From NCBI GenBank assembly GCA_026214975.1, contig CM047809.1, positions 28,989,977 to 29,053,976 of the forward strand: a stretch of 64,000 nucleotides of DNA, given 5' to 3'. The position numbers and the translations under genes were made by a program. The notes below the pieces were generated by a model. That model was not told the origin of the DNA. It searched no databases and saw nothing but the letters and a program-made list of their open reading frames with translations. Of the stretch, positions 2,974 to 61,959 are shown piece after piece. Source of the stretch: Gentiana macrophylla (Eukaryota; Streptophyta; Magnoliopsida; Gentianales; Gentianaceae). The first letter of the stretch is position 1; every line of letters begins with the position of its first letter.

Positions 2974-4682
2974 TGACAAGATCAAGTGATAATAAAATAC
3001 TTGACCACCATAAACCAATACTAGCAAGAGGACTAGGTCCATCGTAGTATAGCTATAGCGAATCAAGGTCGATCCCACAGGGAACCTTTTGTGAATCATT
3101 TATTTACAAACAATTAATCATTCATGCCGAGCAGACGAAGGCGGTCTACGACCAACAAACGACAAGAAAAGATAAAGGACACGACTCGACACAACACATA
3201 GCATACAAGTAATTAACCTCCCAATTACTATGTTATCGTTTGGATCTGTAGATTCTATATAACCAAGCTAGACTCGACAACTATTAATCCGATTCATATT
3301 TCTTTTATATTGGCTACGGAGTCATCCCCAAACTTGACTTAGTTCCGGTAGACACTGAGATCACCGTGCTACATTACGTGACTTCACCTTTTGGGTCTCC
3401 ATCTCATATAACTTGCACGCTTACAATACTAGGGATGCCGATATAAACCGTATTCCTCACCTAGGCAACATTCCTGTGGTTAGCGCATTCCTAAGTGATC
3501 GCATCGGCCTCTCGTCCCCATTAACACTAACTTCGTAGGTATCATGTTAATCTACGATTTACGTATAACTAGGTGCATGCAATTCCCGAATACTGTAATG
3601 CATCTAGATCTCACAAAAGTCCCGGAAGATCAATTCATGAGCCGACCTAGAGAGTCTATATTGGTATTTCCTAATAATACGCTAATTAAAACAGACGAGC
3701 AACGTAGCCGTAGCCATACCTACTAAGATAAGAAATTCTAGGTGGACAATCACACCATAAAGACGTGGCTAGATTGACGCGGTGAAAACCTAAATCTTAG
3801 CGTTTCTATATACGTAATGGATAAAATAGAGATTCATAAAGCAAAGCAATTATATAGATCTACTAAAAACACGGTTGTCGTTCAGATCAAAGTCATACAC
3901 AGGTCACCAGATCTCGACGTGGGCGTGTGGATCCTTATAGACGAGGAATCCCCACTGCCTCACATCGTATCCTTAGATCTACATCGTTTGACAAAGAACG
4001 AACAACCTCAAACTGTAAACAATAATTGGGGGGGACTTAATTACAAAGAACAAAGAACAAATAAATACAAGAACTCACATAATTGCTGCTGAACTTGTAT
4101 TAAAACTGCTCTGAGAAACTGAGAATTTGTGTTATGAAAAAAAGTGATGTAAAGTGTTATGAATAACTAAGTATATATAGGCTTGGAAAATCGACTTAGG
4201 ATAAACTCCAGCCGACCTAATTTACTTTTCCTAAACCCTAAAGGAGATTGAAAACGTGTCGATATAACTCCGTGATGATCCTCAGCCTCGCCTCTCAACT
4301 CGCTCCCCAATGAGCCCTCTACTTACGCCCACGAGTCGATCCGCCTTCGATTGGCTCGGGCTTTTCTTGTTCCTTACTCCACTTTTCGTGTCGCTTCGGT
4401 ATTTATCTTTAATGCAAATGATCGATTCGCCCGATTTATCTTGAGATTTACTTCCTTCATTGGTAGATATCCTCCGATTCACCGTAATCTATAAAATCAA
4501 TAATTATCACACAGTAAATCATATTTAAATAATAAAAATAGATAAATACCAAATTATATTTTATAAATCACATAACATTAAATAAACATTATAAACATGT
4601 GATTTAATATAAAATATATATTATTAACCTCGATTTAAGGATAACGTTGATGACTTTTACGGGTATAATTCGATCGTCATCA
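2974..4682 (-). repeat. 3' LTR of the nested Athila/Tat-like element
   Basis: The LTR is 1,709 bp, starting TGACAAGATC and ending GTCATCA on the plus strand. A TATA box (minus CTATATATAC) lies near 4170-4180. Upstream of it in element sense, at 4278-4360, are repeated short CG-containing phrases (CGCCTC, GGCTC). The U5 block with tRNA-Asp complementarity is at 3021-3086. Confidence 0.85.
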
Positions 4683-5624
4683 ACTACTTCACTTAGACTT
4701 TGATCGTCCCGAACAAAGCATCGATAAGTCATTCCCAAGAAAACATTTTCCATGGTCAAATCATACTTACGCAAGAAACTCGAGTCAACTCATACCACCA
4801 TGCTCATAAGGTATCCATTATTCACTACTCGCTATGAATCAAGTGATGTGTGCATGTGCATTCGCTTTATATATTCGTGGCAAGATTAAAATTCATGCTA
4901 ACTTTGCAGTCTTAACCTACCAACATCAGCATTCCCACTTCTTAAGCCTCGCAATGGGTAAAGACATGGTGCAATAAGCAAGAGCGTTATCCAAAAGGTT
5001 TTTGGACTCGGAGACCGAGAAATATTCAAAGCCTCTTAAAAAGTTGAATTTCTACGCATTTTCATAATTTCAAGCATTAACACCTCTCAAGAAAGACACT
5101 TGCTTTAAAAGTAAAGTATGCATTGCAAGAATCCCCCTCTCACGGATTAGTCAATAGCGTGAATATTACCACAAGCTCGGGGCTACTTTGGTAATGTTAC
5201 TACAAGCCCAGTGTTTAACGCATTGTTAAACCACAGATAATTCTCAAACTTATTACTCCGCTTTGATGGCTAGAAGATAGTAATACACCAGCAGATAAAT
5301 ATCGACACTAAGTCTACATAACCAATCATCTACGCAATGTACACATAATTTCTTCTGGCTTATTATAATTGTATGCGGTAACATCGATTCAAAGATTGAG
5401 TAATCGAATAATAAATAACTACTTGCAACAGTCGGCATGAATATCCTTAAATTTTCATTCACATAAGTATAAAATGATCATGTACTCATGCAACTTGGTT
5501 CCTTTCCTATCAATTCCATGTTTTAGAACTCACAATTCTAAGGGTACGAGATAATTAATTTTGGCTTTTGTTCAATTCTTTCAATTTTTCACCTTTTCAT
5601 TTAATTTTCAATTATAGCACATCA

Positions 5625-5665
5625 TAGCTAAGTCTCCTACCCCACTTAAACTTGGCATTGTCCCC
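5625..5665 (-). other. conserved Athila/Tat 3'-interior motif
   Basis: The minus strand reads GGGGACAATGCCAAG followed by TTTAAGTGGGGTAGG. I know this phrase, usually ending AAGTGTGGGGG, from the non-coding part downstream of pol in many Athila/Tat elements. A second copy of the motif type, in another element, is at 29543-29570 on the plus strand. Together with the primer-binding site it supports the lineage call for an element that has lost all coding sequence. Confidence 0.5.
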
Positions 5666-8375
5666 AATGACAAAGAAAATGAGAATTTAAGAAGAAGACT
5701 TAGCTCGAAAACGCTCGTGATGCAAACATCGGAGTAATTCAAGCACGCCGTGGAGAAGCAAATGAAAACTGCTTTAAGCAAACCAAACAGAAACTCCACG
5801 AAATCAGTAATAATACATGTCAATGGAAGTTATAAAATAATGTGGCAGTAATTAGATGTAAAATGTCCAAAAACAAATTAAGCCACTTTATTTTATACAA
5901 CCAATGACAAGGAAAACCAAAGATTTTTAAAATGACTCGTTCAGACACGAATTCTAAAATGAATAAGAAAAAGGATATATACAGACTCAAAAGAAAAATA
6001 CTAAATAGAAAGAAAAATAAACAATCAACAAAAGATTATAGTCTTCATCGATATCCTCCACCACAAAAATATTAATAAAACCGGGTGGAGAATACAAAGA
6101 TCAAAAAGCATTTCCCCATGTGTGAAAACACGAGATTTACTGGATTGATAAGGTATTTAATCCAGCGTAAAAGAGAAACTTGTTAAGGTATAACAGATTG
6201 GATGGGACCTATTGGTTAAAGAATTAATCAGATACTTCGCGCAGATGCTTCACGTTTTGATTGGATATCAACAACTTAGGGAGATGTAGCTGAGCCGCAA
6301 AATTACTAATTACCCAATTTAGCACGTAGAAGTTCTCAACGTCACCAACAAGGTCGGATCGGTGGGATAGTATAGAACAAAACTCATCATCTAGAAATGC
6401 CGGAATAGGAGTAAAAGTGTGAAATTTAAAACTTCCGGTAGAAAAAGATAAGTTGTATTATGATCGGACCAAAAACTTTTAAAAATCTAGCTAGGGTCAG
6501 AGCTACACGTACCCCAGCTAAGATCATGAAAATCAGAATGAGGAAAGATAGTCATTAAAACTTAGCAATGTTCAAATTCCGCAACAAAAGGGTATCTTGT
6601 AAAGAAAATGGAAGTTGAGAGTATGATGGGTTTAGAAAAAGATAATGAAGGATGGTAAGAAAAGATAAAGGGTGGGTAAGACATTGTGATTATGGGTGGG
6701 TTGAAATTGGTTTAGAATATGGGTTTGGGTAGGTATTGGTGAAGGGATTGGGTTAGGGTGGGAGAGTGAAATAGATGGAAAGAAAGAGAGCGGATGAAAG
6801 AATGGTTAGAAATGTGAATTGTGAGGCAGATTGGTGAGAGAATAGAAAAGGTTGAAGGGTGGAAAGGTACAAAGGAAAGGATAAGGGTAGTTGCAGAACA
6901 AATTGCACACAACATTGGATTTTCACTCTGATCGCCATTCTAAAAAGTTTTGGGAGTTGACCAAAAAGCGTTCTCGTTCGCACCAATCATTCTCTGTTAC
7001 ATTTTCAGTAATTCTCAAGTTCTCTTAATGCTTCCATCTTAAGGTTCATTGCTAAATTTCCTTTTCTTTAGCAATTTCTCGACTCTTCTAAGAAACTCTA
7101 TTTCACGTGGCCTATATTGAGTAAAAAAGTTTTGCACATCCTTAGCCTAATGGCCATCGAAACACGGCAAAATAAAAAAGCTCAACATATGTCACATTAC
7201 TCTTATTTGACTCAAAGAAAACAAAACCTAAAATCCTAAAGAGAAATCCTACGGGGTTTAGAAGTAGTTCTGAGTTTTAAGTCCTCAGCTCGACTTTCCA
7301 AAATTTATCCTTGTTAGTTATCCTTCTTGGATCGCCAGATGTTGACCCCTTGAGCACTATATAAGGTGGGCTCAAATCGATTTATGGATTAATATCCTTC
7401 CCTTGGTTGTGAGACCTAAGAAACGACATTTATCCATACTATTTATACAAAGCTCTTACCTCGGCTCTCGCTTTTAGAACTAGTGAATTCTAAGAAGATT
7501 TAGTCCTAGGGACCTATTTTAATCACATCCTCTATAATGCTGCTTCATTATGCTCTCTCAAAACTCAACGTCTTCTTTGAATTGAGAATTCTTAAAAACT
7601 ACACAAATTGTTGCTCCCATGGCTGTAGGCTAATCTCATGCATATGACAATGAGATTTTGACAGAACTACGAGGAACTCTTTATTCACTCGCTTCTTCAA
7701 CTACTACATGTTTCTTTACACCATCTAGATGAGATGATTTGGGCCGTAACCTTAGACACTAATAAAATTAATCTTATAAACTCACTCCGGGCTATTATTC
7801 ATACCTGTGTTCATGTATAGGCTAACTTATGCTCAAAAACCAAAAGATAGTAAAACATAAGCAAAAAAGGTAGTACCTTGCCTTCAACATTATACCACGA
7901 AGAATTTAAGCCTTTAAATTTTTTTTCTTTCTTTCTTTTTTCTTTTCGGAGCCATCTTGGTGATTTAAAGGTATTGCTTACATCGCTTTTCCCATCGTAG
8001 ATTCGTAGCTCCACATGTTGTTGGGTTCTTTCCTCGCCATGAAAATTATCGACTCGGATTATTGTTCCCTGGTTTCCGCAAAAAGGAAGAAAACAAAAAC
8101 AAACAGACCGTAGAACGACTTTAACATGGTTTCCCATGTCGCTATCGTCACCTACGGATTAAACATACGGAGATAAATGTACACGCCAAGTCTCATAAAA
8201 CAGAACTGTGCTCGTTGGCGAGAGGCGCCTCATTGAGAGCGAAGACAAATGCTCCAAATTCGAATTTGTACACAGAGCGCATAACCAGAGGACTAAAAAA
8301 ACGTAAAAACAGACTTCTAAAATGTAAAACTTAACATGAATAAAAATTATTTATATATAAAATTGACAGTTGGTT

Positions 8376-8392
8376 CCCCGGCAATCGCGCCA
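8376..8392 (-). other. primer-binding site, tRNA-Asp type
   Basis: Minus TGGCGCGATTGCCGGGG lies 9 nt from the 5' LTR edge. It differs at two positions from TGGCGCCGTTGCCGGGG, the complement of the plant tRNA-Asp 3' end (from memory). It defines the element as minus-strand. Confidence 0.75.
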
Positions 8393-8401
8393 AAAACTTG
8401 A

Positions 8402-10087
8402 TGACAAGATCAAGTGATAAAAAAATACTTGACCACCATAAACAAATACTAGCAAGAGGACTAGGTCCATCGTAGTATAGCTATAGCGAATCAAGGTCGA
8501 TCGCACAGGGAACCAATTGTGGATCATTTATATACAAGCAATTAATCATTCATGACGAGCACACGAAGGCGGTCTACGACCAACAAACGACAAGAAAAGA
8601 TAAAGGACATGACTCGACACAACACATAACATACAAGTAATTAACCTCCCCAATTACTATGTTATCGTTTTGATCTAAAGATTCTATATAACTAAGCTGT
8701 AACTCGACAACTATTAATCCAATTCGTATTTCTTTTATATTGGCTACAGGAGTCATCCCCTAAACTTGACTTAGTTCCGGTAGACACTAGATCACCGTGC
8801 TACATTACGTGACTTCACCTTTTGGCTCTCCATCTCATATAACTTGCATGCTTACAATACTAGTGGATGCCCGATATTAACCGTATTCCTCACCTAGGCA
8901 ACATTCCCGTGGTTAGCGTACATCCTAAGTGATCGATCGAGTCTACATCCTATTAACACTAACTTCGTAGGTATCATGTTAATCTACGATTTACGATAAC
9001 TAGGTGCATGCAATTCCCGAATACGTGCAATGTATCTGTATCTCACTGAAAGTCCCGGAAGATCAATTCATGAGCCGACCTAGGAGTCCTATATTGGTAT
9101 TTCCTAATAATACGCTAATTAAAACAGACGAGCAACGTAGCCGTAGCCATACCTACTAAGATAAGAAATTTTAGGTGGACAATCACACCATAAAAACGTG
9201 GCTAGATTGACGCGGTGAAAACCTAAATCTTAGCGTTTCTATAAACGTAACGGATAAAATAGAGATTCATAAAGCAATTATATAGATCTACTAAAAACAC
9301 GGTTGTCGTTCAGATCAAAGTCATACGCAGGTCACCAGATCTCGACGTGGGCGTGTGGATCATTATAGACGAGGAATCCCCACTGCCTCACGTCGTATCC
9401 TTAGATCTACATCGTTTGACGAAGAACGAACAACCTCAAACGGTAAACAATATTTGGGGGGACTTAATTACAAAGAACAAAGAACAAAGAACAAATAAAT
9501 ACAAGAACTCACATAATTGCTAATGAACTTGTATTAAAACTGCTCTGAGAAACTGAGAATTTGTGTTATGAAAAAAAGTGATGTAAAGTGTTATGAATAA
9601 CTAAGTATATATAGGCTTGGAAAATCGACTTAGGATAAACTCCAAATTGACCTAATTTACGTTTCCTAAACCCTAAAGGAGATAGAAAATGTGTCGAGAT
9701 AACTCCGAGCCAATCCTCGCCGCCTCTCAACTCGCCTCCCAATGAGCCTCACTACCGCCAATGAGTCACCGCCTCGATTGGCTCACTGGCTTTTCTTGTT
9801 CCTTACTCCACTTTTCGTGCTGCTTCGGTATTTATCTTTAATGCAGTCTGATTCTGCTCCGATTTATCTTGAGATTTACTTCCTTCGTTGGTAGATATCC
9901 TCCGATTCACCGTAATCTATAAAATCAATAATTATCACACAGTAAATCGTATTTAAATAATAAAAATAGATAAATACCAAATTATATTCTATAAATCACA
10001 TAACATTAAATAAACATTATAAACATGTGAACCTCGATTTAAGGATAACGCTTGATGACTTTTACGGGTATAATTCGACCGTCATCA
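8402..10087 (-). repeat. 5' LTR of the nested Athila/Tat-like element
   Basis: The LTR is 1,686 bp, the partner of 2974-4682. The two differ by scattered substitutions and small indels, including loss of about 30 bp of an AT-rich stretch near 10025. The TATA box lies near 9605-9615 (minus) with CG-rich phrases at 9708-9790 upstream of it. The U5 block is at 8449-8514, directly before the primer-binding site. Confidence 0.85.
8449..8514 (-). other. U5 block with two tRNA-Asp-complementary stretches
   Basis: In element sense it contains GATCGACC (the fuller core GGGATCGA is intact in the sister LTR at 3021-3086) and, about 20 nt on, CTATACTAC. From memory, plant tRNA-Asp(GUC) carries GTAGTATAG near its 5' end and TTCGATCCC in its T-arm, which are the reverse complements. 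The block lies about 60-130 nt upstream of the primer-binding site. Relatives occur in eight other LTRs of this window. Confidence 0.55.
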
Positions 10088-14494: not shown

Positions 14495-15851
14495 AGCTTA
14501 TACCGTTGTATAATGATGAGATTTGGAAGATTGCAGTTTGCTCACGGTGTTCCGCACATTTGTCAGGGCGAACACCGAACGCTTTATACACGTCATCCGA
14601 AGATGGTTTGTCAAGTACAGGAGATTCAAGTTTTTGAAGATGGCGTCCACCAAAGCTTTGATTCAAGCGTCCTGACAAGATTCCAACCAGCTGGATGATG
14701 TGACATAAAGTAGTTGCGTGAGTGCGTCCACCGAAAGAAAAATATTGAAGAAATTGTTAGGGGTGAAACTCTCCCCAACAATGGAAAAATAAGAAGAAGA
14801 CCACCATCTCCATTTGTACACCATCACTTTTTCCTCCATGTTCCACCATTGTATTCATCATCTTTTTCTCATAAAACCTGAAAATATTTCTCCATGGGAT
14901 CTTGTAAATACAATTTTATAGCCTAGATTAGTTAAGCACAATTTGTAAATCATGGAGCCTACTTACATTCAAGCTCTTGACGTTGTTTTATGGTAGAGAT
15001 TAGCATCTTGGTGTTGTTTCTTCCATGGATTAGCTTGAAGAGCTATTACAATATTCTTCTTTTGAGTATGTTGTAATATTGTTGGTAACTTCTTCTTTTA
15101 CTTTTTGGATTTACAAAGTCCTTAAGTGACATTTTGATTTCATAGCTACGAAAAGCCAATCTTTGCTTAGTTAATATGACATTGTAGTAATAATGTATCA
15201 TTTCGTAATGGAATAAGAATAATAACCTTGTGTAATTGATTTTCTTTAATTGAGTTTATTGTTTTGTTAGTATTGAATTGATCTCTCAATATTAGCACAC
15301 ACACATACAAGAGATCTAGGAAAGAAATTATGTGTGGGAAAAGGGGTAAAGAAACCGATTGGTAAAATCGAAGTATTGATACGGTGTCAGACTCCTAAGC
15401 GGGGTTTATATCAAGTTGACCGCTTGTCTGTGCAGCCGTAGTTTTTAATCATGTTAACCTTGTAGAGTCTCATCATTGGTGAGGACGTGGGGGAGGCATA
15501 GTAGTAGTCGTGTGTCCGGTTTTAAGAAAATGGCTATTAGATTAGAGGTTTGTACCATTAATTACACTAGTGTAATAAGGAAGGTTGTAAGGATAATCAT
15601 TCTTATAAAATTGCATTGGATAATTAGTTATTCTACAATAATATTAACTAGTCCTCTCCTTGTTTATCCATGTAGTCTTGTATGTTTTAAACCTTGTATG
15701 CCTTGTTGATTTAAACCAAGAGAATGAAGTTATCAAGTACTCAACCTTGACTTTTTTCTCCCAGTGGAATACGACCCTGACTCATCAATTATAGGCTACA
15801 ATTGATCCGGTACACTGCCGGTAAGATTGGACACATAGAAAATGCCGATCA
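14495..15851 (+). repeat. decayed Athila-like LTR, plus orientation
   Basis: This stretch ends with ATGCCGATCA followed by a decayed tRNA-Asp primer-binding site at 15858, as in other Athila-type LTRs here. A weak U5 block is at 15761-15815. Near its start, inverted phrases CGGTGTTCCGC and GCGAACACCG (14545-14580) resemble the palindromic motif pairs of the other LTRs. The left boundary is uncertain; a TGATGAG at 14514 is the best candidate. No second LTR is seen, so it is a 5' fragment. Confidence 0.55.
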
Positions 15852-15857: not shown

Positions 15858-15875
15858 TGGTGTTGTTGCCGGGAA
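15858..15875 (+). other. decayed primer-binding site, tRNA-Asp type
   Basis: TGGTGTTGTTGCCGGGAA aligns with TGGCGCCGTTGCCGGGGA. The first three differences are C-to-T changes in the CG-rich half, as expected from deamination of methylated cytosines in a silenced element. A short stretch of interior DNA follows, to about 16000. Confidence 0.6.
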
Positions 15876-20100: not shown

Positions 20101-20833
20101 CAAACTCCCAAGCTAGTCTAAGGTTTCTAGCTCGGGTTTCAACATTGGTCTTCATAGCACTGATTGGTGGATTTTATCTTTAACTCCATGGTAGAGTTTA
20201 TTCCGCCAAATCCATACGCAGAGAGGCCATTTCCCTAAATTGATAGGCCCACTCCTTGTTACGTCCTCGAACATCGATATTTCTTTGAATCCAATCAACC
20301 TCCATAGTGCACGAAAAGAAGTCGTCCCAAAGATGTCTGGGAAAGGCACTCTTCCACAGCTTCTTCGCCAGATGACAATCTCTTAAGGCATGTAGAGTAG
20401 TTTCCTCATCATTCTTACAGAGCTGGCAAGTAGCAGTTGCACTCACATGTCGTTTAAATAGCAACGACATAGTGGGGAGGGCCTTGTGAGCTACTTGACA
20501 TAGTAAAAAATTACCTCTAGCTGGTCCTTTAAGTGACCAAACATCTCTCCAAATCTGGGCCGCATGTGCATTGTCCTTCATGAGGTAGTTGTACCCATCA
20601 GAGACAGAATATTTTCCGCTATTACTGTCACACCACACAACATTGTCACCTTCTACCCCAAACCCATCTTTCAACTGGTCCGCCGCATGCCAAATACTCT
20701 TCCAGGTGAAGGAACTGGTCGGCCTAGGCCTCAAGAAAGGATTCCCGTGCTTGTGTATCATGACTTTTACCCAGAGAGCTTGGTCATCAGTCAGCATTTG
20801 CCATACTAATTTCCCTGTGAAGGTCAGATTCAT
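20101..20833 (-). pseudogene. LINE ORF2 C-terminal part with zf-RVT domain
   Basis: The minus strand encodes WRDVWSLKGPARGNFLLCQ, HKALPTMSLLFKR and CQLCKNDEETTLHALRDC. This is the cysteine/histidine zinc-binding region found after RT in plant L1 ORF2 proteins. After a frameshift it continues with NVETRARNLRLAWEFD and a stop near 20098-20100, the usual L1 end. Conserved residues include the CQLC pair and the H..RDC pair. The 5' side (about 20833-20951) encodes LPKSTLLDMEKMC, the link back to RT, and is cut by the solo LTR at 20952. Confidence 0.8.
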
Positions 20834-20951
20834 ATGTCAGAGGTTTTGTGCCCAAGCCCCCACTTTCCTTAGATTGGCAGAGTTTGTCTCTTCTACCCAA
20901 ATTTTTTTTTCTACACATCTTCTCCATATCAAGCAAAGTAGATTTTGGTAG

Positions 20952-22381
20952 TGATCGCATGCAAAGCACTTACTAGCAATAGACTAGGTCTATCGTAGTA
21001 GAGCATCAAGTAGTCAAGGCCTAATCCCACAGAGACTCGTAAGAATGTCTAATTATCAAGATTGAGTTGTCACAATAACGGTCTACGACCAACTATAATA
21101 TATGTACATGAGTATCGGTGCCTTAAACTAACAAGATTATGCAAGTTCGACTTTAAGCAAACTAGAGTTTCTAAGGTATTAGTTCAATTACGAGTAATTA
21201 GTTATTCCTCCACACATGCAAATAATTCCCCATTGGTGAATTTATTCATTGTTCACCACGGGTACAACTCCTAACCCTATCTACTCCGACAATAGCAAGA
21301 AGAGACAATCTATACGCAAGCTACCCTCCTTAATTGGTCCGTAATATCCCATACGATAAAGAACTGTAGTCGCCGATGTTGAGTGTTACCTTATTCCGCA
21401 AACCCTCCTAGATAAATGCCGACATTGACCAAAGACGCTCCTAAGGTCCATTCTAGATAATGTCCTAATTAACACTTCACTTATGGTCCTTCATGTTAAT
21501 TTACGATGACATGCAAATAGTTGATCAAAGCACTAACATGTAAATTAAATCTATCGATCAACGTAGTCGGCGCCGATTATCATGAATTAGTAATTTACTA
21601 AGTATTCGTGTCTAATGATATGTATCGGCCGCAGATCCAAGAACGCAACTACTATTTCATGATTTCTTCACCAACGAATCGATCTATAACACATATGGTA
21701 AAATAAACTAGCTACTACATAATTAAACTAAATAAACAATTAAAACATACTAGTTGAATATAACGACGATAGATCTACATCTTGAAAAGATATAAAACCA
21801 TACCTCGAAGATTTAGCGTAGATCTCCTTCGGATCTCTCCTCTAGGCGGCACTGGCTGCTTCTCCAACCGTAACTCATAAAATAAATAAAATAAAGAACA
21901 AAGAACTTTTATTGCATAATTTCCTTGAATAATTTGAGTACATTTTGTTCTCGAGGCGGCCTCTTATTTATAGCTATCTAAACCGACTTAGGAACAAATA
22001 GTTTGACCTCGCCCAAGAAAACACGCTTCGAAGATTCTCGACCTCGTAAGTCGGGCGCCATCCTCGGTTACCGAGGGTATTTTCGCCCTTTTCTTCACCG
22101 ACTTAACTTGATGCTTCTGTAATACCCTAGCCCATTCTTTTCGCTCACCCACCTGCATTCGCCCATCATGCTCACCCCAATATTCCGTGATCCCGAAATC
22201 ATTAAATAACGCACGAAATAATATCGAAACAGGGAAAATAAACACTAAGTGTAGATTTCAACTCACGAACCCGACATATGATATTCAACGAAAATGGTTC
22301 ATATTTATAGTCGAAACAACTATTTTTAGCTCATAATGGATAGAATATTGATGCCGTAGATAGACTATTTTAACCGCCATC
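20952..22381 (-). repeat. solo LTR (Athila/Tat-like) inserted in the LINE
   Basis: This 1,430-bp sequence begins TGATCGCATGC and ends AACCGCCATC on the plus strand. It splits LINE ORF2 between the stretch encoding YAMQT and that encoding LPKSTLL, which adjoin in intact L1 elements. The flanks share GTAG (20948-20951 and 22382-22385). A U5 block (20973-21036) near the left end, and a TATA box (minus GCTATAAATAAG near 21965-21976) with CG-rich phrases at 22010-22080, give minus orientation. No interior or second LTR is present, so recombination between two LTRs has removed the rest. Confidence 0.75.
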
Positions 22382-22597
22382 GTAGTTCATAGTTTGCATA
22401 GCATAAAAAGTGTGTCCTTTAGGAACTTTTCGTAAGAATCATTCTACCAAATTGCTGATAAGCATTTGATTTTCCAACTAGCAAGTTTTCTCCCCATCTT
22501 GTCCATAATAAAATTAAAAGTGTTTTTTGTTACCCGTGAGTGAAGCAAAGGTGCTCCAAGGTATTGTCCAAGTTGAGCGTAATGTTGCATCCCCAAT

Positions 22598-23308
22598 TCA
22601 TGGTCGATTATCGATCGATTTGGTGGGGTGTTCTTGGACACACGGGAACCTGGACTTCCCAATACTCACCTTTGGCCTCAAACACCGCAAAATCATCAAG
22701 TACTGCTTGATAAATGATCGCTTGTTCAACTCGCGGCATCCCCAAATACCACGAGATCGTCCGCAAAAGAAACACATGAAAAAGGAGGTGCGTAACCGCG
22801 ATTTTAACGGGTTTCCGTGATCCGTTAAACAGAGCCGAGCCGATTTTTTTGGCTTAAGCACTCCATACACAAGATAAACAAAGCAGGGGGCAAGTGGGTC
22901 TCCTTGCCTTAGACCTCTCTTAGGCTGTCTTGGGGGCAAAGTATTTCCATTCCATAGAATCTGCATCTGGGACCATTCGAGCATAAACATGATAAGTTGC
23001 ACCAGCTTTGGAGAGAAACCCACTTTAGTGATGATCTTTTTTAAGAACTGCCAATCAACTCTATCGTATGCCTTTTCAAGATCAATCTTCAGCAGCATGC
23101 TACCTTTCCTCCCTGTTTTCTGTCTGAAGTAATGCAGAACTTCCTGGGTGATAATTATATTACCAGTGCCCCCTCTACCTGGGATGAAAGCAGATTGAGT
23201 TTGACTGACAAGTTTGCCGATGACAGATCGCAGCCTATTTGCAATCACCTTTGATATTACTTTCACACAAACATTCATTATAGCAATAGGTCGTAAATTG
23301 AGAGACAA
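22598..23308 (-). pseudogene. LINE ORF2 reverse transcriptase
   Basis: RT motifs are clear on the minus strand: LRPIAIMNV, the finger motif QSAFIPGR, KIDLEKAYDRVDW carrying the first catalytic aspartate, and GLRQGDPLAP. The catalytic FADD box is still encoded near 22737-22772 (FADDLVVFGDAAS) but in a shifted frame, followed by a stop. The reading frame is broken at least once inside RT and again before 22444. Downstream in sense, 22444-22600 encodes YLGAPLLHSRVTK and ASWKIKCLS, the thumb/connection region, before the solo LTR interrupts. Confidence 0.85.
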
Positions 23309-24261
23309 GCTCCGAGGGTTGACTTTCGATAAGTGAGATAGTAGGCAATTTAGTCGCTGGTCAAAACAAATTTCTCCTCAAAGCTTTAAAACAAAAGAGA
23401 GGAGCGCCTTATAGATTGTAGGCCAACATTTTTTTATAGAAAGTTGCAGGATCCCATCCACCCTGGGGGCCTTGAACTCTCCCATTTCGAATGCCGATCT
23501 TCAACTTCTTTCTCAGAACCTTCTCGCTTAGGATAAGAAGGTCCGGCGGAGAAAGCGCCGGAAAGTGAGCTCACTATCAAGAATCGCATATCTCGTGTCG
23601 TTTGAATAAGTTCTCATAGTAATTGCGCACCATATGTTTCAACTGACGCCATCATAAACCCAATTATCATGTTCATCTTTAAGGCATGTCACTATCCGCT
23701 GCTTTTTTTTCTAATGGTGAGAGGTGATATAAGTGGGTATTTCTTTCCCCTCCGCCATCCACATTAATTGTGATCGTTGGTGCCAATAAACTTCTTCCTC
23801 GAATCAAAATTTCATCAAGTTCTTGATTAAGGGTGAGTGCAAATTAGACAAGAACCGAGACGGTGCTTTTTCACGACTTTGCTCTACCCTTCCAAATAGC
23901 AAGGCATTCCTTCTTTCACAAAATATGTTACCAAAACTTTCCGGTTCCAAATGTTAGTCACTTGTGCGAATCTCTGATGCATCTCAAAAATATTTAAGTC
24001 CTCATCCCACGATCAAGTTACCATATCTTCAAATTCTCTATGTTCCAACCAAGCTCTCTCGAATGGAAGGATTGATCTCCCCGCATCCGTGGGTCTAAGG
24101 TCGCTTCTAAGAGAATAGATTGTGGTCCTGATTGCTCTCGAGGTAGATGCCTCACCAACGATGCTCAAATTTCTAGCCACTCCATATTTCCCAAACTTGG
24201 TCAAGTCTTTGCAGATTTTCTCGTTACCAAAAGTTTTTCCTTGCTGTGTAAATCTCGCCCC

Positions 24262-24656
24262 CGAAAGGGAATTTCAATCAAGCCGCATTGTTGTATCATG
24301 TTCCAAAGTTTGATCATGTTAAGGCCCCCACACTTCTTCCACCGCACTTATCTCTTTGAAAATCACTTGATTGAAGTCTCATGACACAAGTGGCCGATTG
24401 TGGAAGCACTTGAGCCTTGTTAGTATTCCAAGAACTCGCTCTCAAAGACAAGGGAATTTCAATCAATCCAAATTGCATTGTTGTATCATGTTCCTAAGTT
24501 TGATCATGTTAAGGCCCCCCACACTTCTTCCACTGTGACTTATCTCTTTGAAAATCACTTGATCAAGTCTCATACGAGACACTAGGCCGATCAGGAAGCA
24601 CTTGAGCCTTGTTAGTATTCCAAGAACTCGCTCTCAAAGATCAAGCATTGGTGATG
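24262..24656. repeat. tandem duplication of ~190 bp inside the LINE
   Basis: Two consecutive units (about 24262-24452 and 24453-24656) share long identical runs, for example TTTGATCATGTTAAGG, CTTATCTCTTTGAAAATCAC and CTTGAGCCTTGTTAGTATTC. The duplication lies in the decayed part of ORF2 between endonuclease and RT and adds to its inactivation. The high identity implies it is younger than the surrounding decay. Confidence 0.75.
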
Positions 24657-24752
24657 CATAGACAAGTGGTAAGGATCCAAATTATTTCCCCATTTTTCAT
24701 GGTGACCATAGAGAGGGATTGATTCGAGCACGTGATGTATTGTAGGGATACC

Positions 24753-24980
24753 TCATCTTCTTTCCAATAGCACCAGAGCCCTCCGGCATACCCCCCGAGC
24801 CTCCACAACAAAGAGATTCATAAACTCCGTTTTGTTAAGAATTTCAATCGCTCTCTCTCTAGAACTCCTTGTTTCCATTAAGAAAAGGATATCCGGTTTA
24901 AAGCTAGTCAAAATCGATTTAAGGTGTCTAAGGAACCCATTAGAGCAGGCCCCTCTACAATTCCACACAAGTATCTTCAT
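24753..24980 (-). pseudogene. LINE ORF2 endonuclease N-terminus
   Basis: The minus ATG at 24980 opens MKILVWNCRGACSN, followed by LKSILTSFKPDILFLMET. This is the start of the apurinic/apyrimidinic-type endonuclease of plant L1 ORF2, with the asparagine of WNCRG and the glutamate of LMET as catalytic-site residues. The frame is lost after 75 residues, and the catalytic SDH region downstream is not recognisable. The start codon is well supported because this motif normally begins within a few residues of the ORF2 start. Confidence 0.8.
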
Positions 24981-26606: not shown

Positions 26607-27981
26607 TGATAACTTCCTATAAATTTCCCACATTATGAATATTTTGCATTGAATTTGGGCTTTATAATTAATTTAATGAGTAAAGTTGCTTTCAATTAAT
26701 CAAGTGTAAAATGGGCTTTAATTTGGGCTTTATTATAAATTTTATATCATTTTGGGCCATATTATGTTTTTGCATTTTGTATTAATTGTGATGTAGATGA
26801 AGATAAGATCAAATGATGAGGTGGAAGTGTAGATAAGAGCAAAGTTGTTGTAGGAGAGATGAAATGTGCATCAATAAGTGGATAGAACGGTTACATCTCA
26901 ACAAATTCAACCAGGTGAAGACAGAACGGACGCTCGTGGATGAAACGGGCGCTCAAGCGCAACAGAGAGTCCGGAAGTCGAGAAAATGAGATCAAACGGG
27001 CGTCCCATGCATGAAACCATGCTCCATCCGTAGAGTTGTCGGTTTTCTATAAATAGTCGCCACTTGTAATCTCGTGAGACATTATTAGATTTCATCTTTG
27101 TTTTCCAGATCGAAAATCTGAGATTTCTCGTAGCTCAAACACCTCAAAAGTAGATTCAATTCACTTTTTAGTCTAGATTTTATGGATTTCTCTTCAAGCT
27201 TTGTACTCAATCACTCCATGGATAGCTAAACAAATTTTACGGCAAACGCGGGATGCAATTGTAATCAACAATCCTGGTTTTCTTATAATTAATCTTGTGT
27301 TCTTCAACAGAGGTTAGATCAATTAGCTTGCTTTATTCATTTCAATTCGCTTACATCGAAAGATAACGATTTTATGATGCCTCATGAATGAAAGTTTATG
27401 AATCTAGATCATCTTGTTAACTTGATTGAACAATTAGCTCTTAGCTCATAACGAAAGTTGCTAAATTAATTGTTCGGTCGTTAATCGGTGGATTGCACAC
27501 CGATCGTTAATTGATACAAACGCTGTTAAGAAATTAATCGCTTTGTACGTGATAAGGTGAACCCGCCTTTGTTGAAAAACACTTTTGGTTGATTGTAATT
27601 GAGCCTTTATTGTTGATTAAATTGTCGAACCAAATGTTTGCCTCTCCTTTCCCGAATTACTCGCTTATAATTGCATAAATCGAAGTTTTTTCAAATCGCC
27701 GCTTAACTTAGTTAACTTAAAACGCCTTTCTTTCAAATTCGAGTGATCCTCTCATAGCTTTGAATCGCTTTTTGGTTCTCTCTGTTTATGCTCGTTGTAC
27801 CGCTGAATCTAAACCATAAAACATCATCAAAAGTATATCCTCAGGATCGATACCTATACTCATCTTACTATACTATCTACTACCCGATATTCGGTCGGTT
27901 AGAGGTAGTTTGCATAATAAGTATTGGTTTTATATAAATTGTTTTTGTTTTGAATGATTAATGCAAAAATTACTCCAAACA
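26607..27981 (+). repeat. Tat-type 5' LTR
   Basis: The LTR begins TGATAACTTCC and ends CCAAACA four bases before a tRNA-Asp primer-binding site (27985). The TATA box is TATAAATA at 27048-27055. Three copies of an AACGGGCGCTC-like phrase lie at 26925-27005, upstream of the TATA box. The U5 block is at 27839-27893 (GGATCGA, then CTATACTAT). The start coordinate is inferred from the TGAT starts of sister LTRs. It abuts the 5' end of the LINE. Confidence 0.7.
27048..27055 (+). promoter_or_regulatory. TATA box of the Tat-type LTR
   Basis: TATAAATA sits after the GC-rich phrase cluster and before a pyrimidine-rich leader, the standard U3/R layout of the LTRs in this window. Confidence 0.55.
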
Positions 27982-27984: not shown

Positions 27985-28002
27985 TGGCGCCGCTGCCGGG
28001 AA
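27985..28002 (+). other. primer-binding site, tRNA-Asp type
   Basis: TGGCGCCGCTGCCGGGAA differs from the tRNA-Asp complement TGGCGCCGTTGCCGGGGA by two changes, one of which can still form a G-U type pair. Its position is directly after the LTR edge. Confidence 0.75.
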
Positions 28003-30547: not shown

Positions 30548-32052
30548 AATTGTAGTGTTTTTACCGATATATTTTATATCAATTTTCCCCATATTCTTAT
30601 TATTTTCATAGAAATCGAGCTTTATATTGAAATATTGAGTAAATGATATTTTCAATGGGTTAATTCCAAAACATATCAAATTTTATGCTTAATTGATGAT
30701 TTATTGTTAATTTGGAATTATATTACATTTTGGTATCATTTGATCATTATTTAGAGCTTACAAGTGTTCAAGCTTGAAGTGACAAGTGGCAAAAGGATAA
30801 GATCAAGAGGACAAGTCATGAATCATCTAATATCCAAGAGATAAGGTTTGTTACAAAAGGATAAGGATGGGTTGTTAGAGATATTGATAAGAATCATCGA
30901 ACAAGCTCAGAAATGTGGAATCGGGCGTTTCTACAAATGGAATCATGGCGTTCGGGATCGAAATCATGCGCTCAAGGCTTGGAAATCAATACCGGTGAGC
31001 TCGTAAAAGCATGGAACCGAGTTCCGTAATGGAATCGGCGCTCCAAAGGCCAAATCAAGCGCCCCATGATGAAACCAGCTGTCGTAATCGCTCAGACCGC
31101 TGTTTATAAATACAAAGCAGCCCCAATTCATTCAGAGAGACATTATAGATCGATTTTTCTTCCACACACCAAAAACACAGAGCAAACCGCCTTCTTCTTT
31201 TATTCATCATCACCCAAGCCTTGTGCTTGGGTGATCCGGGTAAGATTAGGTTTTACTTCTTTGTTTTCCTTTTCTTGTTCGACGCTATGATGATCTCTCA
31301 AGCTTTGAACTTGGAGCAATGCATGTAATACTTTTCAAAGCCTTCTATTTCTCGTCCATGGATGATCTTGTGAGTTTAATTTTAAAGTTGTTTTCTTTCC
31401 TTGATTATGTGTTATGCAATCGATAACGAAAAGTTGTATTGCTATCGATGTTTATCAGATGACTAAAGTCGGTGTAAACCTTAGATCACCATAGAAAGAT
31501 GAGATTTTTAACCTTGACATAACGAAAGTTGATAGGTTGAATCTCTAGTTGTTAGATTGAGAGATCTTGCACCTCGCTTTATGATGTGTTAATCTTTAAA
31601 ATCGAGAGATAGAAGATTACTTAAGAGAGGTGAACCACAACTTGAATTAAATCACCATAAGATAATCTAGTGGGAAGAATTAAGGCTCATGGATGGTGGA
31701 TCATGTTTGTTCTATGTTATATTGCTTTAGTCGTTATCATGGGTTCGTTAGTTTTACCGCTTTTCGTAGTTGTAGTTTTATTTATGTTGGTTCGCAATTA
31801 TTGTTTCCTCGCTTTGATTAATAGTCCTCCATTCAGCTTTATTTGTCTGCTTTAGTTTTATTAATAACCAGTGAGTAACAATTGGAAAGATTAACAAAAT
31901 TAGATTCAACATCCCAATTCTCAGGATCGACTCCTTACTTATCTCGCTATACTATCAACTACCCGGTGTTTGGCCGTTAGAGTTAGTTTTGCATCTAAGT
32001 TGTGGGTTTATAAATTTTTTCTTTGTTTAAATGATGCAAAATCCTCTCAACA
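30548..32052 (+). repeat. second Tat-type LTR, diverged from the first
   Basis: It has the same layout as 26607-27981: GC-rich phrases (GGGCG, GGCGCTC) at 30920-31065, a TATA box (TTTATAAATA, 31104-31113), a U5 block (31919-31965) and an end CTCTCAACA. No primer-binding site follows, so it is a 3' or solo LTR. Outside the U5 block similarity to the first LTR is low, which suggests a different subfamily rather than a true LTR pair. I found no target duplication. Confidence 0.55.
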
Positions 32053-38564: not shown

Positions 38565-38726
38565 GAATCTATGTTCGAATAATATGAAAAAGAAGGGATT
38601 TTTAGTGGGGAGATTGGGTCATTGAGATTGGAGATTCTATGAAATGGGTTCTTAACAAAAGTACAAAAAGGACAAGACAAATGGCAACCAGAAAGGGAAT
38701 TTATCATTTCATTATCCAACAGTAAA

Positions 38727-40358: not shown

Positions 40359-41487
40359 TGATGTCGCGCATATAAGTCGCTTATACTAGTAAGAGTACTA
40401 GGTCAATCGTAGTATAGCGATTAGCGAAGGCAAATCAAGGTCAATCCCACAGAGACAATGCAACATTGATAATAAATGTACTAAACTAATTAAGAACACA
40501 TAGAGTGTTCTACGACCAACGTAAAGACAAAAAAGAAATTGGTATTCCCCTCCTAACCTATCTCCTAGCTTGGTATAATTAATCGTTATGTTTACTTTCC
40601 CTGTAATTCCCCGAGTCAATCAGAACTTATGCTTTAATTCACTTTTAGCTACGGGTGTGATTTCCTAACCTTGTTTACTCCATTTGTAAGGACAGTAAAC
40701 GTCTATGTGCAGTTAACCTCCTTCATTGGTTGTATTAACCCACATGCAATAAGTTCTAGAAAGTGTCGTCTCAAGACCGAGAACCTTCCTAGGCAGCTAT
40801 CGACAATGACTAGCACGTTCCTAAAGATTGATCCAGACGATGTCCAGACTAACACTTCACTAATAGTCCTTCATGTTAATTTACGAATACGAAAAGTAGA
40901 TTGGATAGATCTAATCTATTGTTAATTAAACATGTCGATCAACGTAGCTGATGCTGAATCTCTAGATTTAGGGTGACCTAAAAGTTGCCTCGCAATTGCG
41001 ATATAGACCATCGCAATTGCAAGCGAGGCGGTTCCTAATTCTGGAATTTCATATTACTGTTCTGATTAATTCTGGTAAATTACGGATGCGTTAAACATGC
41101 AGATTAATAAAACTACGTAGAAAAAGCTAATCTACCATGGTAAAAATATGAAGGAACGTTCAAAGCTTCATACATTTGATTATGGCGGATCTAGCTTGAT
41201 CAATTCAAGCTAGTTGATGGCTTGGGGAAGGAAACCAATGGAAAAACTCAAAAGCAAAACCCAAGAACTTTTATTTCATATAAATCTTAACAAGAGTTGT
41301 AAGTATATGTTACAATGACTGCTACAGGCTTTTTATAAGCACTGTAAACCGACTTAAACAACCTAAACCCTAGCCAACTTATGCATAACACGGAAGCTCG
41401 ATTTCTTGCTGCCCAAGTACTTGCTATTGCGGATGGGCCTCTGCAATTGCAGGCCTAACTTCACCTTCTCTGTTATCAGTAGATCTC
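40359..41487 (-). repeat. LTR B, copy 1 (Athila/Tat-like), right end cut
   Basis: It starts TGATGTCGCGC, with a U5 block (40386-40455). Palindromic GCAATTGC phrases are at 40991-41026 and 41441-41452. The TATA box is on the minus strand near 41329-41340 (GCTTATAAAAAG). It is interrupted at 41488 by a copia LTR fragment. Its intact sister is 42523-43848. Confidence 0.75.
40386..40455 (-). other. U5 block with tRNA-Asp complementarity (LTR B)
   Basis: In element sense: GTGGGATTGACC, then CTATACTACGA. CTATACTAC is an exact complement of tRNA-Asp GTAGTATAG. The change in GGGATTGA still allows a U-G pair with the T-arm. Confidence 0.5.
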
Positions 41488-42522: not shown

Positions 42523-43848
42523 TGATGTCACGCATGTTAGTCGCTTATATTGGCAAGAGTACTAGGTCAATCTTAGTATAGCTAAAACGAATCAAGGTGG
42601 ATCCCACGGAAACAATGCAACATTGATAATAAACGTACTAATCTAATTAAGAACACATAAAGTGGTCTACGACCAATGTAAAGACAAAAAAGAAATTGGT
42701 ATTCCTCCTCTTAACCTATCTCCAACTTGGTATAATTAATCGTTATGCTTACTTTCCCCCGTAATTCCCTGAGTCAATCAGAACTTATGTTTTAAGTCAG
42801 TTTTAGCTACGGGTGGAATTCTTTAACTTTGTTTACTTCAATTTGTAAGGACAATAAACGTCTATGTGCAGTTAACCTCCTTCATTGGTTGTATTAACCC
42901 ACTAACAATAAGTTCTAGAAAGTGTCGTCTCAAGACTGAGAACCTCTCTAGGCAGCTATCGAAAATGACTAGCACATTCCTAAAGATTGATCCAGACTAT
43001 GTCCAAACTAACACTTCACTAATAGTCCTTCATATTAATTTAAGAATACGAAAAGAGATTGGCCAGATCTAGTCTATCGTTAATTAAACATGTCGGTCAA
43101 CGTAGCTGACGCTGAATCTCCAAATTTAGGGTGACATAAAAGTTGCCTTGCAATTGCGATATAGACCGTTGCAATTGCGAGCGCGGCAGTTCCTAATTCT
43201 GGAATTTCATATTACTGTTATGTTTAATTTTGGTAAATTATGGGTGCGTTAAACATGCATATTAATTACATCGCGTAGAGAAAGCTAATCTACCATAGTA
43301 AAAATACGAAGGAACGTTCAAAACTTAATACCTTTGAATATGGCGGATATAGCTTGATCAACTCGAGCTAGTTGATGGCTTGGGGAAGGAAATCAATGGA
43401 AAAACTCAAAAGCATAACCCAACAACTTTTATTAACAAGAGTTGGAAGTATATGTTACAATGACTGCTACATGATTTTTATAGGCATTGTAAAATGACTT
43501 AAACAACCTAAACCCTAGCCGACTTATGCATAACACGGAAGCTCTATTTCTTGTTGCCCAAGTACTCGCTTATTCATGGGCCGGGCCTCCACAATTCATG
43601 GGCCTAACTTAAGCTTCTCTCATATCGTGAGATCTCTTCGTGGACTTTTCTACTTCGGCCCATTAATTCTTTTAGCCCGGATTAATTCTTTATTGCTCGA
43701 AAATATGGCATACACGAAAAGCATGGAAAACGAGACAAAACAGTACCAAAGTCGAGGGATAAATACGTAAATACAGATTTGACAACCAAGAAACATGCAC
43801 TAAACAATTGACATGCATTTCACACAATAACCGGACTATCACTCATCA
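42523..43848 (-). repeat. LTR B, copy 2, complete
   Basis: 1,326 bp from TGATGTCACGC to ACTCATCA, with a U5 block at 42551-42613 and GCAATTGC phrases at 43150-43178. The TATA-like box on the minus strand is near 43475. No primer-binding site lies next to its U5 edge; block A is there instead, exactly as in copy 1. Confidence 0.8.
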
Positions 43849-56670: not shown

Positions 56671-56715
56671 TTCCCTGTGGGATTACGATCTTGCTCGCTA
56701 GTTTTATACTACAAC
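56671..56715 (+). other. U5 block, longest D-arm complement
   Basis: TTCCCTGTGGGATTACGATC, then TATACTACAAC (56705-56715). The last 11 bases are an exact complement of GTTGTAGTATA near the 5' end of plant tRNA-Asp (recalled sequence). The primer site for the same tRNA lies 58 bases downstream. Confidence 0.6.
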
Positions 56716-56772
56716 CGACTCGGTACTCTACCGGTCAAAGTTGGTATACTATAAAACGGCCATCAAGTTTTC

Positions 56773-56790
56773 TGGCGCCGTTGCTGGGGA
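56773..56790 (+). other. primer-binding site, tRNA-Asp type
   Basis: TGGCGCCGTTGCTGGGGA differs by one base from the exact complement of the tRNA-Asp 3' end. Confidence 0.85.
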
Positions 56791-59321: not shown

Positions 59322-59324
59322 GCA

Positions 59325-60206
59325 ATGCACGTGACAATGCTAACACACAGGGCTACAAAGAGAATGACTATGGAGGAAGGTTTAGTGAAGTCAAGCACGA
59401 TTGATGATAAGAATGAAGAGTTGGCAGAAGCCGCCGGTGAGCTCAAAATCACCGATTTTGTGGATGCAAGATGGCACAAGTACTTGGAACTTGAATTAAG
59501 TGATGAAAAAGCAATGCCCTTTATAGAAGATCCACCCCGAAACCTCGAAAGGAAGGAACTCCCGGCTCACCTGAAGTATGCTTTTCTTGAAACTGATTTA
59601 CACCCGTTAATTATTTCTTCTATTTTAACTAATCTGTAGGAGGAAAAGCTATTACGTGTTTTGATAAGTCACAAGTGTGCCTTTGGGTGGAAATGGCGGA
59701 TATACAGGGAATAAGCCCGGAGCTTTGCAAACATAAAATCATTCTCGATGAGGGCATGAAACCGGTAAGGCAGCCCCAAAGGAGGTTAAATCCTCATATG
59801 CAAGAGGTCGTAAAAAAGGATGTGATCAAGATGTTTGAGATGGGTATCATTTATGCTATAAGTGACAGTGAGTGGGTCAGCCCAACACAGGTTGTACCGA
59901 AGAAAGGAGGAATGATGGTGCAAGCCAATGAACATAATGAGCTCATACCTACTCGACTGGTCACCGGATACCGCGTGTGCATAGACTACCGGATGCTAAA
60001 TGATGCTACACGTAAGGATCACTTCCTTTTACCTTTCATTGATCAAATGTTGGAACGTTTGAGTGGACATGCATATTACTATTTTCTAGATGGCTTTAGT
60101 GGATATTACCATATCATAATCGACCCTAAAGACCAAGAAAAGACCACTTTTACGTGTCCGTATGGCACTTTTGCTTACACTCGAATGCCGTTTGGGTTAT
60201 GCAATG
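59325..60206 (+). pseudogene. Athila-like reverse transcriptase, first part
   Basis: 59500-59639 encodes the linker LPAHLKYAFLETDLHP and a stop. 59675-60206 encodes CKHKIILDEGMKPVRQPQRR, WVSPTQVVPKKGG, RVCIDYRMLNDATRKDHF, FLDGFSGYYHI with the first catalytic aspartate, and GTFAYTRMPFGLCN. The solo LTR follows inside the next codons, and coding resumes at 61960 in the expected frame. No protease motif (DLGAS-like) is present between gag and this region, so about 600-900 bp normally found there are missing. Confidence 0.9.
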
Positions 60207-60509
60207 TGATAACGGTCATTTTGTGCCCGTTATTCTATGACCTTTATCCCCGATTCTAGTTTAAAGGAGCTATAATAGAGCAATAATAAGTCGTAATACG
60301 CTTAATTTGCGTATGCCGAGAGTTACGATTCGTTATTATGTATTAGGAGGTTTTATTATATTATTTGATGTTACAGATCAGTATTTCATGCTATATTTGT
60401 AGTAACTCATTTTGGAGCACAAGGATGGACTTGGAGAAGCTTTAATGGATCGCAGACAAGTTCAGAAAGCCCAAGGCATAAAAGAAGAAGAAAGCCCAGA
60501 AGCATATAA

Positions 60510-61127: not shown

Positions 61128-61849
61128 GCTTTCCAAACCTGTTTCATCCGTTAATCAGTCACGTCTTTATGATTAGGTTAGCTTAATTGAATCTGTTATC
61201 TCAGTAGGTATGGCTATGGCTACGCCACCGCTAATTTAATTAAAACGTGTAGAAGGAAATACCGATATAAAACTCTTAGGTAGGCTCATGAATTGATCTT
61301 GGACGCTCAAATTATCTAGGTAGGTTTATATTAGGAATTGCGCGCACCTTGTTATAATGTAGAGATCGTAAACTAGCATGAGACTATAACTTTGTAATTG
61401 TTGGTTGGACGAGAGTTTGAGTGATCGTTTAGAAGTATGCCTAACCATAGGAATGTTGCCTGGACGAGGTGTACGGTTAATATCGGCATCCTTAGAGTCG
61501 TAAGCGCGTGAGTTATATGAGATGGAGGCACCAAAAGGCGAAGTCACGTAACAATACCACAGTTGATCTAGTGACCTACCGGTGCTACATCAAGTTTTGA
61601 GGATGACTCCGTAGCCAATATAAATAGATATGAACGGATTAATAGTTGGTGAGTCTTGTTGTTATATAAATTGTCTAGATCCAAATGATTACGGTTATAA
61701 TTGGGCGATTGATTACGTTATTTGTTTACATGTTATTAGTTTATATGTTTGAGTGTGTCTTTATTTTCTCGTATTCTATGTTGGCCATAGACCGTCTTTG
61801 TCAAACGAAATAAATAGGTTGACTATTTAAGTCAGGATCCACAAATTGA

Positions 61850-61915
61850 TTCTCTGTGGGATCGACCTCGACTCTATCTAGCTATACTGCGATTGAACCT
61901 AGTTCACTTGCTAGT
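61850..61915 (+). other. U5 block with two tRNA-Asp-complementary stretches
   Basis: GGGATCGA (61858-61865), then CTATACTGC (61882-61890). The first is an exact complement of TCGATCCC in the T-arm. The second differs from CTATACTAC at one base that still allows a G-U pair. Confidence 0.6.
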
Positions 61916-61959
61916 GGTTATTTAGGCATCGAGTTAATAATTTAACTTGACCGCAATCA

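Follow-up and report, generated by a model that had tools for sequence, protein, structure and literature searches.

A conserved U5 segment of tRNA-Asp-primed Ty3/gypsy elements in Gentiana macrophylla is complementary to the 5′ end and D-arm of the primer and is a probable second docking site

We analysed a window of 64,000 nucleotides (nt) from the plant Gentiana macrophylla (assembly GCA_026214975.1, contig CM047809.1, positions 28,989,977 to 29,053,976 of the forward strand), and in particular a block that recurs in the U5 (unique 5′) region of its long terminal repeat (LTR) retroelements and that resembles the antisense of their primer, the aspartate transfer RNA (tRNA-Asp). A preliminary description of the window had proposed that ten LTR copies carry this block in two halves, one complementary to the T-arm of tRNA-Asp and, downstream, one complementary to its 5′ end and D-arm. 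All ten blocks are present on the strands proposed: copies a (3021-3086), b (8449-8514), c (20973-21036), d (40386-40455) and e (42551-42613) on the minus strand, and copies f (15761-15815), g (27839-27893), h (31919-31965), i (56671-56715) and j (61850-61915) on the plus strand. The order of the halves, a GGGATCGACC-like motif followed by a CTATACTAC-like motif, was borne out with variation among copies, f reading GGCTACAATTGAT, and g and h reading CTCAGGATCGA and CTATACTAT.

Since two pairs of copies are duplicates, the ten blocks amount to about eight lineages: a and b lie in a direct repeat (91.5% identity over 1733 nt), which we take for the two LTRs of a single element, and d and e lie in a second (87.7% over 1599 nt). 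The preliminary description placed the block close to the end of U5. This holds for a/b, where it sits inside a repeat ending at 2974 and 8402 with the segment against the tRNA 5′ end 63 nt inside it; for d/e the repeat runs about 480 nt beyond the block and the search gave no primer site, so that such a position is not apparent there. When up to 5 mismatches to the tRNA-Asp site are tolerated, a primer site of this type is recognisable 3′ of four of the ten blocks, as had been supposed for those that survive: at 8375..8392 on the minus strand (2 mismatches, following copy b), and on the plus strand at 15858..15875 (decayed, 4 mismatches), 27985..28002 (2 mismatches) and 56773..56790 (1 mismatch). 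Two further matches with 5 mismatches each occur in the window, neither of them downstream of a block. Seven blocks (a, b, f, g, h, i and j) are 77.6-96% identical over 99-147 nt to U5s elsewhere in the genome that precede a perfect tRNA-Asp site, and the nearest such relatives of c, d and e reach 72-76% over 92-105 nt. Downstream of copy i an RVT_1 match (59633-60259) has plant reverse transcriptase proteins as its best matches, one of them named Ty3-I-like. With LTRs, primer site and reverse transcriptase seen across different copies, the window elements are Ty3/gypsy LTR elements with a tRNA-Asp primer. PF03078, the domain of Athila ORF-1, had no match among the 18 open reading frames (ORFs) of the window that were scanned, and scans of the window with Rfam and ARAGORN returned nothing and no tRNA, respectively.

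We found that the downstream half of the block is a larger match than the 9-11-mer first proposed. Counting from the tRNA 5′ end, CTATACTAC-RAY-N-GAC is complementary to tRNA-Asp nt 15 to 1 with one bulge, CTATACTAC being the middle of this longer match, and ACTYACC-like letters upstream extend it in several copies to nt 23-25. Together they are predicted to pair, with wobbles and bulges, with nt 1-25, that is, the 5′ acceptor strand and the D-arm. On the minus strand the segment lies at 3037..3052 in copy a (CTATACTACGATGGAC, pairing with nt 15-1 with one bulge), 8465..8480 in copy b (read as the 5′ LTR of the a/b element, with the primer site following), 20988..21003 in c (CTCTACTACGATAGAC), 40402..40417 in d (CTATACTACGATTGAC) and 42566..42581 in e (CTATACTAAGATTGAC), where one pair is broken and another stretch of the copy scored higher. 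On the plus strand it lies at 15780..15806 in f (ACTCATCAATTATAGGCTACAATTGAT, against nt 1-23), 27856..27883 in g (ATACTCATCTTACTATACTATCTACTAC, against nt 1-25), 31947..31962 in h (CTATACTATCAACTAC, extended to nt 24 by TACTTATC upstream), 56704..56719 in i (TTATACTACAACCGAC) and 61882..61897 in j (CTATACTGCGATTGAA).

The 5′ part of the tRNA-Asp sequence behind the original proposal agrees with the available portions of two papers, which give the D-loop base as A (GTGGTAAG; PMC5831935, PMC3519564), and, but for this one base, with a tRNA-Asp gene of the same genome (locus L021, the only tRNA gene that ARAGORN found among eight loci), which has G (GTGGTGAG); in the T-arm this gene has TTCGAACC in place of the proposed TTCGATCC. 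The ACTCACC of U5s such as those of loci L041 and L051 matches the D-loop G.

Next we compared the block with a panel of 22 tRNAs, using a profile of eight weighted lineages for the window. We shuffled the tRNA and not only the U5, because shuffling the tRNA leaves the shared ancestry of the U5s untouched. The window profile ranked tRNA-Asp first of the 22 (17.2 versus 11.9 for the next tRNA) with the best match at nt 1-15, and 1 of 1000 dinucleotide shuffles of tRNA-Asp reached the real score; when the U5 of a further contig, L014 (described below), was added, tRNA-Asp scored 15.0, which 4 of 4000 shuffles reached. Single copies gave a more uneven picture: under strict scoring tRNA-Asp came first in four of the ten, and the numbers of 300 shuffles of their own U5 that did as well were, from a to j, 4, 4, 13, 1, 110, 162, 68, 2, 9 and 25, so that e, f and g are individually no better than chance. 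A looser pairing score, under which everything scores high and tRNA-Asp came first in 2 of 10 copies and as low as 14th, was dropped.

We then turned to the genome, where a pattern search found at least 8,733 plus at least 8,672, in total at least 17,405, perfect tRNA-Asp primer sites. Our sample comprises all 100 sites listed, which lie on a single contig within roughly its first 9 Mb, clustered at 80% identity over 110 nt into 21 clusters (18 for the first 70 loci); single-linkage clustering at 65% merged nearly all of them and was discarded. Shuffles were shared across U5s, since drawing them separately for each U5 understates the spread. Across the 21 clusters tRNA-Asp ranked first, ties counted, in 16, with a mean of 24.6 versus 18.6 for the next tRNA, and 1 of 2000 shared tRNA shuffles reached its score; it ranked first in 79 of the 100 copies and in the top three in 93. 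The same held for the first 70 loci and tRNA nt 1-25 (24.1 versus 18.9; 0 of 300 shuffles; first, ties counted, in 13 of 18 clusters), and with nt 1-57 tRNA-Asp again ranked first (3 of 300). For the anticodon region, nt 26-48, the signal was absent in these 18 clusters (rank 21; 279 of 600), and reverse-complemented U5s of the 100 sites (21 clusters) gave a negative result as well (189 of 1000). Both controls suggested at the outset, shuffled sequences and non-cognate tRNAs, therefore came out in favour of the 5′/D-arm half in window and genome alike, and this half is cognate-specific.

Against dinucleotide shuffles of their own U5, 12 of the 18 cluster representatives were matched by at most 5 of 200. 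Taken alone, the tRNA segments are weak (nt 1-7, 280 of 400 shuffles; nt 8-15, 40 of 400; nt 16-25, 5 of 400), and therefore the signal is that of the joined stretch. Among the 18 representatives, in an alignment which itself favours pairs, 232 of 294 aligned cells facing a tRNA G or U are Watson-Crick and 49 wobble, and of 79 cells facing A or C, 76 are Watson-Crick and 1 is a transition. In the 18 clusters, 51-100 nt separate the end of the segment from the primer site. Collectively, U5 sequence beyond the primer site is complementary to the cognate primer to a degree that exceeds shuffled and non-cognate controls, more weakly so when measured by duplex energy.

The upstream half fared differently. 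It had been put forward as a primer-activation signal of the kind known from human immunodeficiency virus type 1 (HIV-1), whose primer-activation signal (PAS) is 8 nt long and faces the T-arm. We found it at 3067..3080 in copy a (CTGTGGGATCGACC), 8495..8508 in b (CTGTGCGATCGACC), 40439..40452 in d (CTGTGGGATTGACC) and 42596..42609 in e (CCGTGGGATCCACC) on the minus strand, and at 61854..61867 in j (CTGTGGGATCGACC) on the plus strand. In conventional numbering GGGATCGA is complementary to tRNA nt 55-62, of which nt 59-62 already belong to the 18-nt primer site, so that four of the eight matched bases are those that the primer site occupies; nt 58 is usually 1-methyladenosine. Nor is the match specific to the cognate tRNA: tRNA-Asp ties with tRNA-ArgACG in the window profile (45 of 2000 shuffles) and falls third behind tRNA-Ala and tRNA-ArgACG in the 18 genome clusters (3 of 300 and 22 of 1000). 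A score against linear nt 40-57 alone was reached by 142 of 600 shuffles, which does not support an HIV-type pairing of the free T-arm bases. GGGATCGACC-like letters occur in most of the 18 representatives, a match common to many tRNA T-arms. The role as a primer-activation signal was thus not upheld; this T-block could act before annealing, or could belong to a hairpin, H1.

Two hairpins were recognised in the block. H2 lies directly 3′ of the anti-5′ segment, as CTAGT...GCTAG, CCGGT...ACCGG and other versions, for instance at 3021..3036 on the minus strand in copy a (CTAGT-CCTCTT-GCTAG, with homologous hairpin columns in the other copies) and at 56720..56734 on the plus strand in copy i, with a TCGGTA/TACCGG stem. 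In H2, 96.2% of cells are paired and three of five pairs show compensatory changes on both sides; H1 (UCYC-NNN-GGGA) is weaker, with 81.8% paired. The joint covariation score of H1 and H2 was reached by 0 of 500 shuffles and all slid controls were lower, while less favourable measures gave 30 of 500 (pairs changed on both sides) and 492 of 500 (number of pair types). When six U5 stretches were folded alone, those of b (8449; z -5.3) and j (61850; z -3.3) fell far below shuffles and the other four gave z -0.7 to -1.9; furthermore, by eye, CTATACTA pairs with a downstream TAGTAT in copies a, b and d. Conservation of the block need not, therefore, all concern the tRNA and, because H2 adjoins the anti-5′ segment, the block is a composite of a tRNA-complementary linker and a hairpin.

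Next, we examined elements with other primers. The genome holds 309 plus 285 perfect sites for initiator methionine tRNA (tRNA-iMet), of which 100 were listed and 80 analysed (40, then 40 more). These elements, probably lineages other than the Asp-primed ones, showed no tRNA-Asp signal above shuffles (784 of 2000 for the first 40, in 10 clusters; 438 of 2000 for all 80, in 23 clusters), and Asp-site elements showed none for tRNA-iMet (1634 of 2000). By these sequence comparisons the Asp block goes with Asp-primed elements. Against their own primer, the iMet-site U5s were matched by 14 of 2000 shuffles (10 clusters), 3 of 2000 (23 clusters) and 192 of 2000 (the 14 clusters without loci of the first 40), tRNA-iMet being third of 22 by mean score across the 23 clusters. 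A TCCGCTGCGC-like stretch complementary to tRNA-iMet nt 10-19 is found in some clusters, including the two largest. The U5s with such a stretch, or with a TTCCGTTGCG-like one that likewise matches the D-arm of tRNA-iMet, include those of L093, L094, L106, L114 and relatives. For two iMet-like primer sites in the window, tRNA-iMet ranked 17 (293 of 400) and 3 (21 of 400). The non-chromovirus elements are described, in the available part of PMC6317226, as priming mainly with tRNA-Ala, Arg, Asp, Lys and Trp; a perfect tRNA-Lys-CTT site had 0 matches in the genome pattern search, which thus brought up no switch of primer inside one lineage, and a look for further primer types across 126,260 nt from the genome loci gave one Thr-like stretch with 2 mismatches.

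We also looked beyond Gentiana. A literature text search for the letters of the Asp site matched a single paper, on the peanut element Athena (PMC5904367), and in the sequence in its available part CTATACTTGCAACGA stands about 50 nt upstream of the Asp site, with tRNA-Asp first of 22 and 1 of 300 U5 shuffles as good; a search for the block letters matched no plant paper by title. A scan of genome contigs for an LTR end plus Asp site gave L014, a plant-like retroelement contig (3.9 kb, 36.5% GC) in a Streptomyces clavifer assembly, where it is probably plant contamination; by eye a T-block, TTACTACAATTG and a GC hairpin can be made out in its U5, and its score alone is not significant (47 of 300). 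Scans of viral contigs for the Asp site (4 stretches) and the block (9) gave nothing LTR-like of plant type by eye, with 0 of the 9 having an Asp site within 4 mismatches; one match, L006, is phage-like by eye from its ORFs.

What we observed is complementarity specific to the cognate tRNA, the stretch that it covers, its retention in families that have diverged, and the compensatory changes of the hairpin. We consider it probable that the conserved U5 block gives tRNA-Asp-primed Ty3/gypsy elements a second place at which the 5′ end and D-arm of the primer dock. The 3′ 18 nt of tRNA-Asp would anneal to the primer site and open the acceptor stem. The 5′ strand so released (nt 1-7) would then pair with the U5 segment, together with nt 8-15 and the D-arm (nt 16-25), and the neighbouring H2 probably presents or spaces this segment. 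We infer that the two RNAs pair in this way in virus-like particles and that the pairing affects reverse transcription; it may serve to select the correct tRNA, to stabilise its annealing or to bring about the switch from initiation to elongation.

Several results weigh against a docking site. The remaining 6 of 18 representatives are matched by 8, 21, 26, 38, 67 and 83 of 200 of their own shuffles, 5 of 21 clusters rank another tRNA above Asp, and by duplex energy tRNA-Asp is best on average (-21.9 versus -20.4 kcal/mol) and first in just 5 of 18 clusters. The span nt 1-25 was chosen post hoc from the window, and relatives of window families are among the genome clusters; just three clusters are without any of the first 70 loci, and these give 8 of 2000, one of them ranking tRNA-Asp 11th. 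A milder gap cost lowers Athena to rank 3 (6 of 400) and L014 to rank 2 (60 of 400), and H2 accounts for part of the conservation of the block. Finally, tRNA-Asp has the highest mean of the 22 tRNAs in the iMet-site set too (16.96), yet not above its own shuffles. Ranks alone can thus mislead, so the case rests on margin and shuffles. That same result lowers the odds of a wider hypothesis which we put forward tentatively and rather doubt, namely that plant tRNA-primed LTR elements as a rule carry a U5 site for the 5′ end or D-arm of their cognate primer and evolve it anew with each primer (anti-Asp nt 1-25; anti-iMet D-arm, TCCGCTGCGC). If it were true, primer choice would be written twice in the genomic RNA, and the template would hold both acceptor strands.

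Could the block instead be a self-folding RNA element, with H1 and H2 serving packaging, dimerisation or leader folding and the tRNA match incidental? The pairing and two-sided changes of H2, the H1 pairs, the joint score above all slid controls, the two U5s that fold below shuffles and the CTATACTA-TAGTAT pairing in three copies all speak for it, but the hairpins do not account for a linker that matches the cognate tRNA over 15-25 nt, where 1 of 2000 tRNA shuffles does as well, and Athena, in the sequence available, has the anti-5′ segment but, by eye, lacks a T-block (with an H1-like TTCCTAGGGA farther upstream); we regard this explanation as unlikely. Less probable still is that the block is a relic of a captured antisense tRNA-Asp that lost its anticodon arm and is decaying or kept for an unrelated reason. 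The anti-T, anti-D-loop and anti-5′ segments do stand in the order of one antisense tRNA with nt 26-48 silent, and another family has captured the 5′ half of tRNA-Asp in sense, but origin and present function are not exclusive, and the segment is recognisable in most clusters less than 80% identical to one another, so something preserves it.

A host silencing system in which the U5 segment is the target of a 5′ tRNA-Asp fragment (tRNA-derived fragment, tRF) seems to us very improbable, although plant small RNAs starting with GTCGTTGTAGTATAGTGGT are reported as microRNAs (available portions of PMC5831935 and PMC3519564) and Athila6A transcripts are reported as targets of a 5′ tRF derived from tRNA-Met (available portions of PMC13390833 and PMC8215267): a silencing site would be expected to be lost, persisting only if priming needs the segment, and the segment is often bulged and wobbled. 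We give even less credence to a segment that mimics the tRNA acceptor strand and sequesters the primer site in cis; CAACGAC can form 6 of 7 pairs with GCCGTTG of the primer site by eye, but the primer site offers no partner for the counterpart of tRNA nt 8-25, where much of the match sits.

A second docking site in plants would most likely be, by analogy, an extension of primer-template contacts known in yeast and retroviruses. According to the available part of PMC5454406, the genomic RNA of Ty1 has stretches away from the primer site, Box 0, Box 1 and Box 2.1, that are complementary to the primer's T and D hairpins, an initiation role being established for Box 0 and Box 1. The plant segment likewise makes the genomic RNA complementary to the primer beyond the primer site, but whereas the boxes, 6-7 nt long and complementary to tRNAiMet, are found 3′ of that site, it is one stretch of 15-25 nt, lies 5′ of the site and includes the extreme 5′ end of the tRNA. 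Ty3, also a Ty3/gypsy element, pairs the D arm apart from the main site (PMC5371799, available part), in its case with a part some 4800 nt away in U3, whereas the plant segment is in U5, tens of nt upstream. In HIV-1 the PAS and the A-rich loop, upstream of the primer site, likewise contact further parts of the primer (PMC3185550, available part); in contrast, the robust plant part faces the 5′ end and D-arm, and the plant T-arm part is not cognate-specific. Athila, Calypso and Diaspora share a primer site that lies 5 bp past the LTR and is a perfect complement of the 3′-terminal 18 nt of tRNA-Asp, and the available part of the same paper (PMC1142308) describes no second tRNA-complementary site. 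A recent review, in its available part, describes plant primer use solely as pairing of the 3′ acceptor stem with the primer site (PMC12786077), and in the portions available of the open-licence literature we found no plant element for which an additional site for the primer tRNA is described, which is not proof that none exists.

A docking site of this kind would extend the yeast and retroviral picture to plants and, with the candidate segment in most of 100 copies sampled from at least 17,405 Asp sites, would make plant primer selection directly testable. The segment may help to assign primers to elements in which the primer site itself is decayed, as it is across much of the window, and it raises the question of an interplay with 5′ tRNA-Asp fragments.

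Apart from these results, a repeat family (L015-L020 and L022) carries a sense copy of tRNA-Asp nt 1-33 or thereabouts, a 5′ tRNA half, at about 1498-1530 of each locus. Its 25-base core has 735 exact genome matches, and of eight loci fetched seven are the repeat and one a true tRNA gene. In L019 and L020, the two loci with such a site in the fetched stretch, an Asp-type primer site lies about 730-930 nt upstream of the sense tRNA half, and L020 RNA would contain the antisense U5 segment plus the sense half. At about 567-754 of L020, in repeat-sense orientation, four tandem tRNA-Asp primer sites spaced 55-59 nt apart stand downstream of one U5.

Elsewhere in the window, degraded minus-strand sequence at 20198-26460, which we take to be of the long interspersed nuclear element (LINE) type, matches zf-RVT, RVT_1 and DUF4283, and a 460-amino-acid ORF with a RING finger at 37236-38618, also on the minus strand, lies among repeats and is possibly a host gene.

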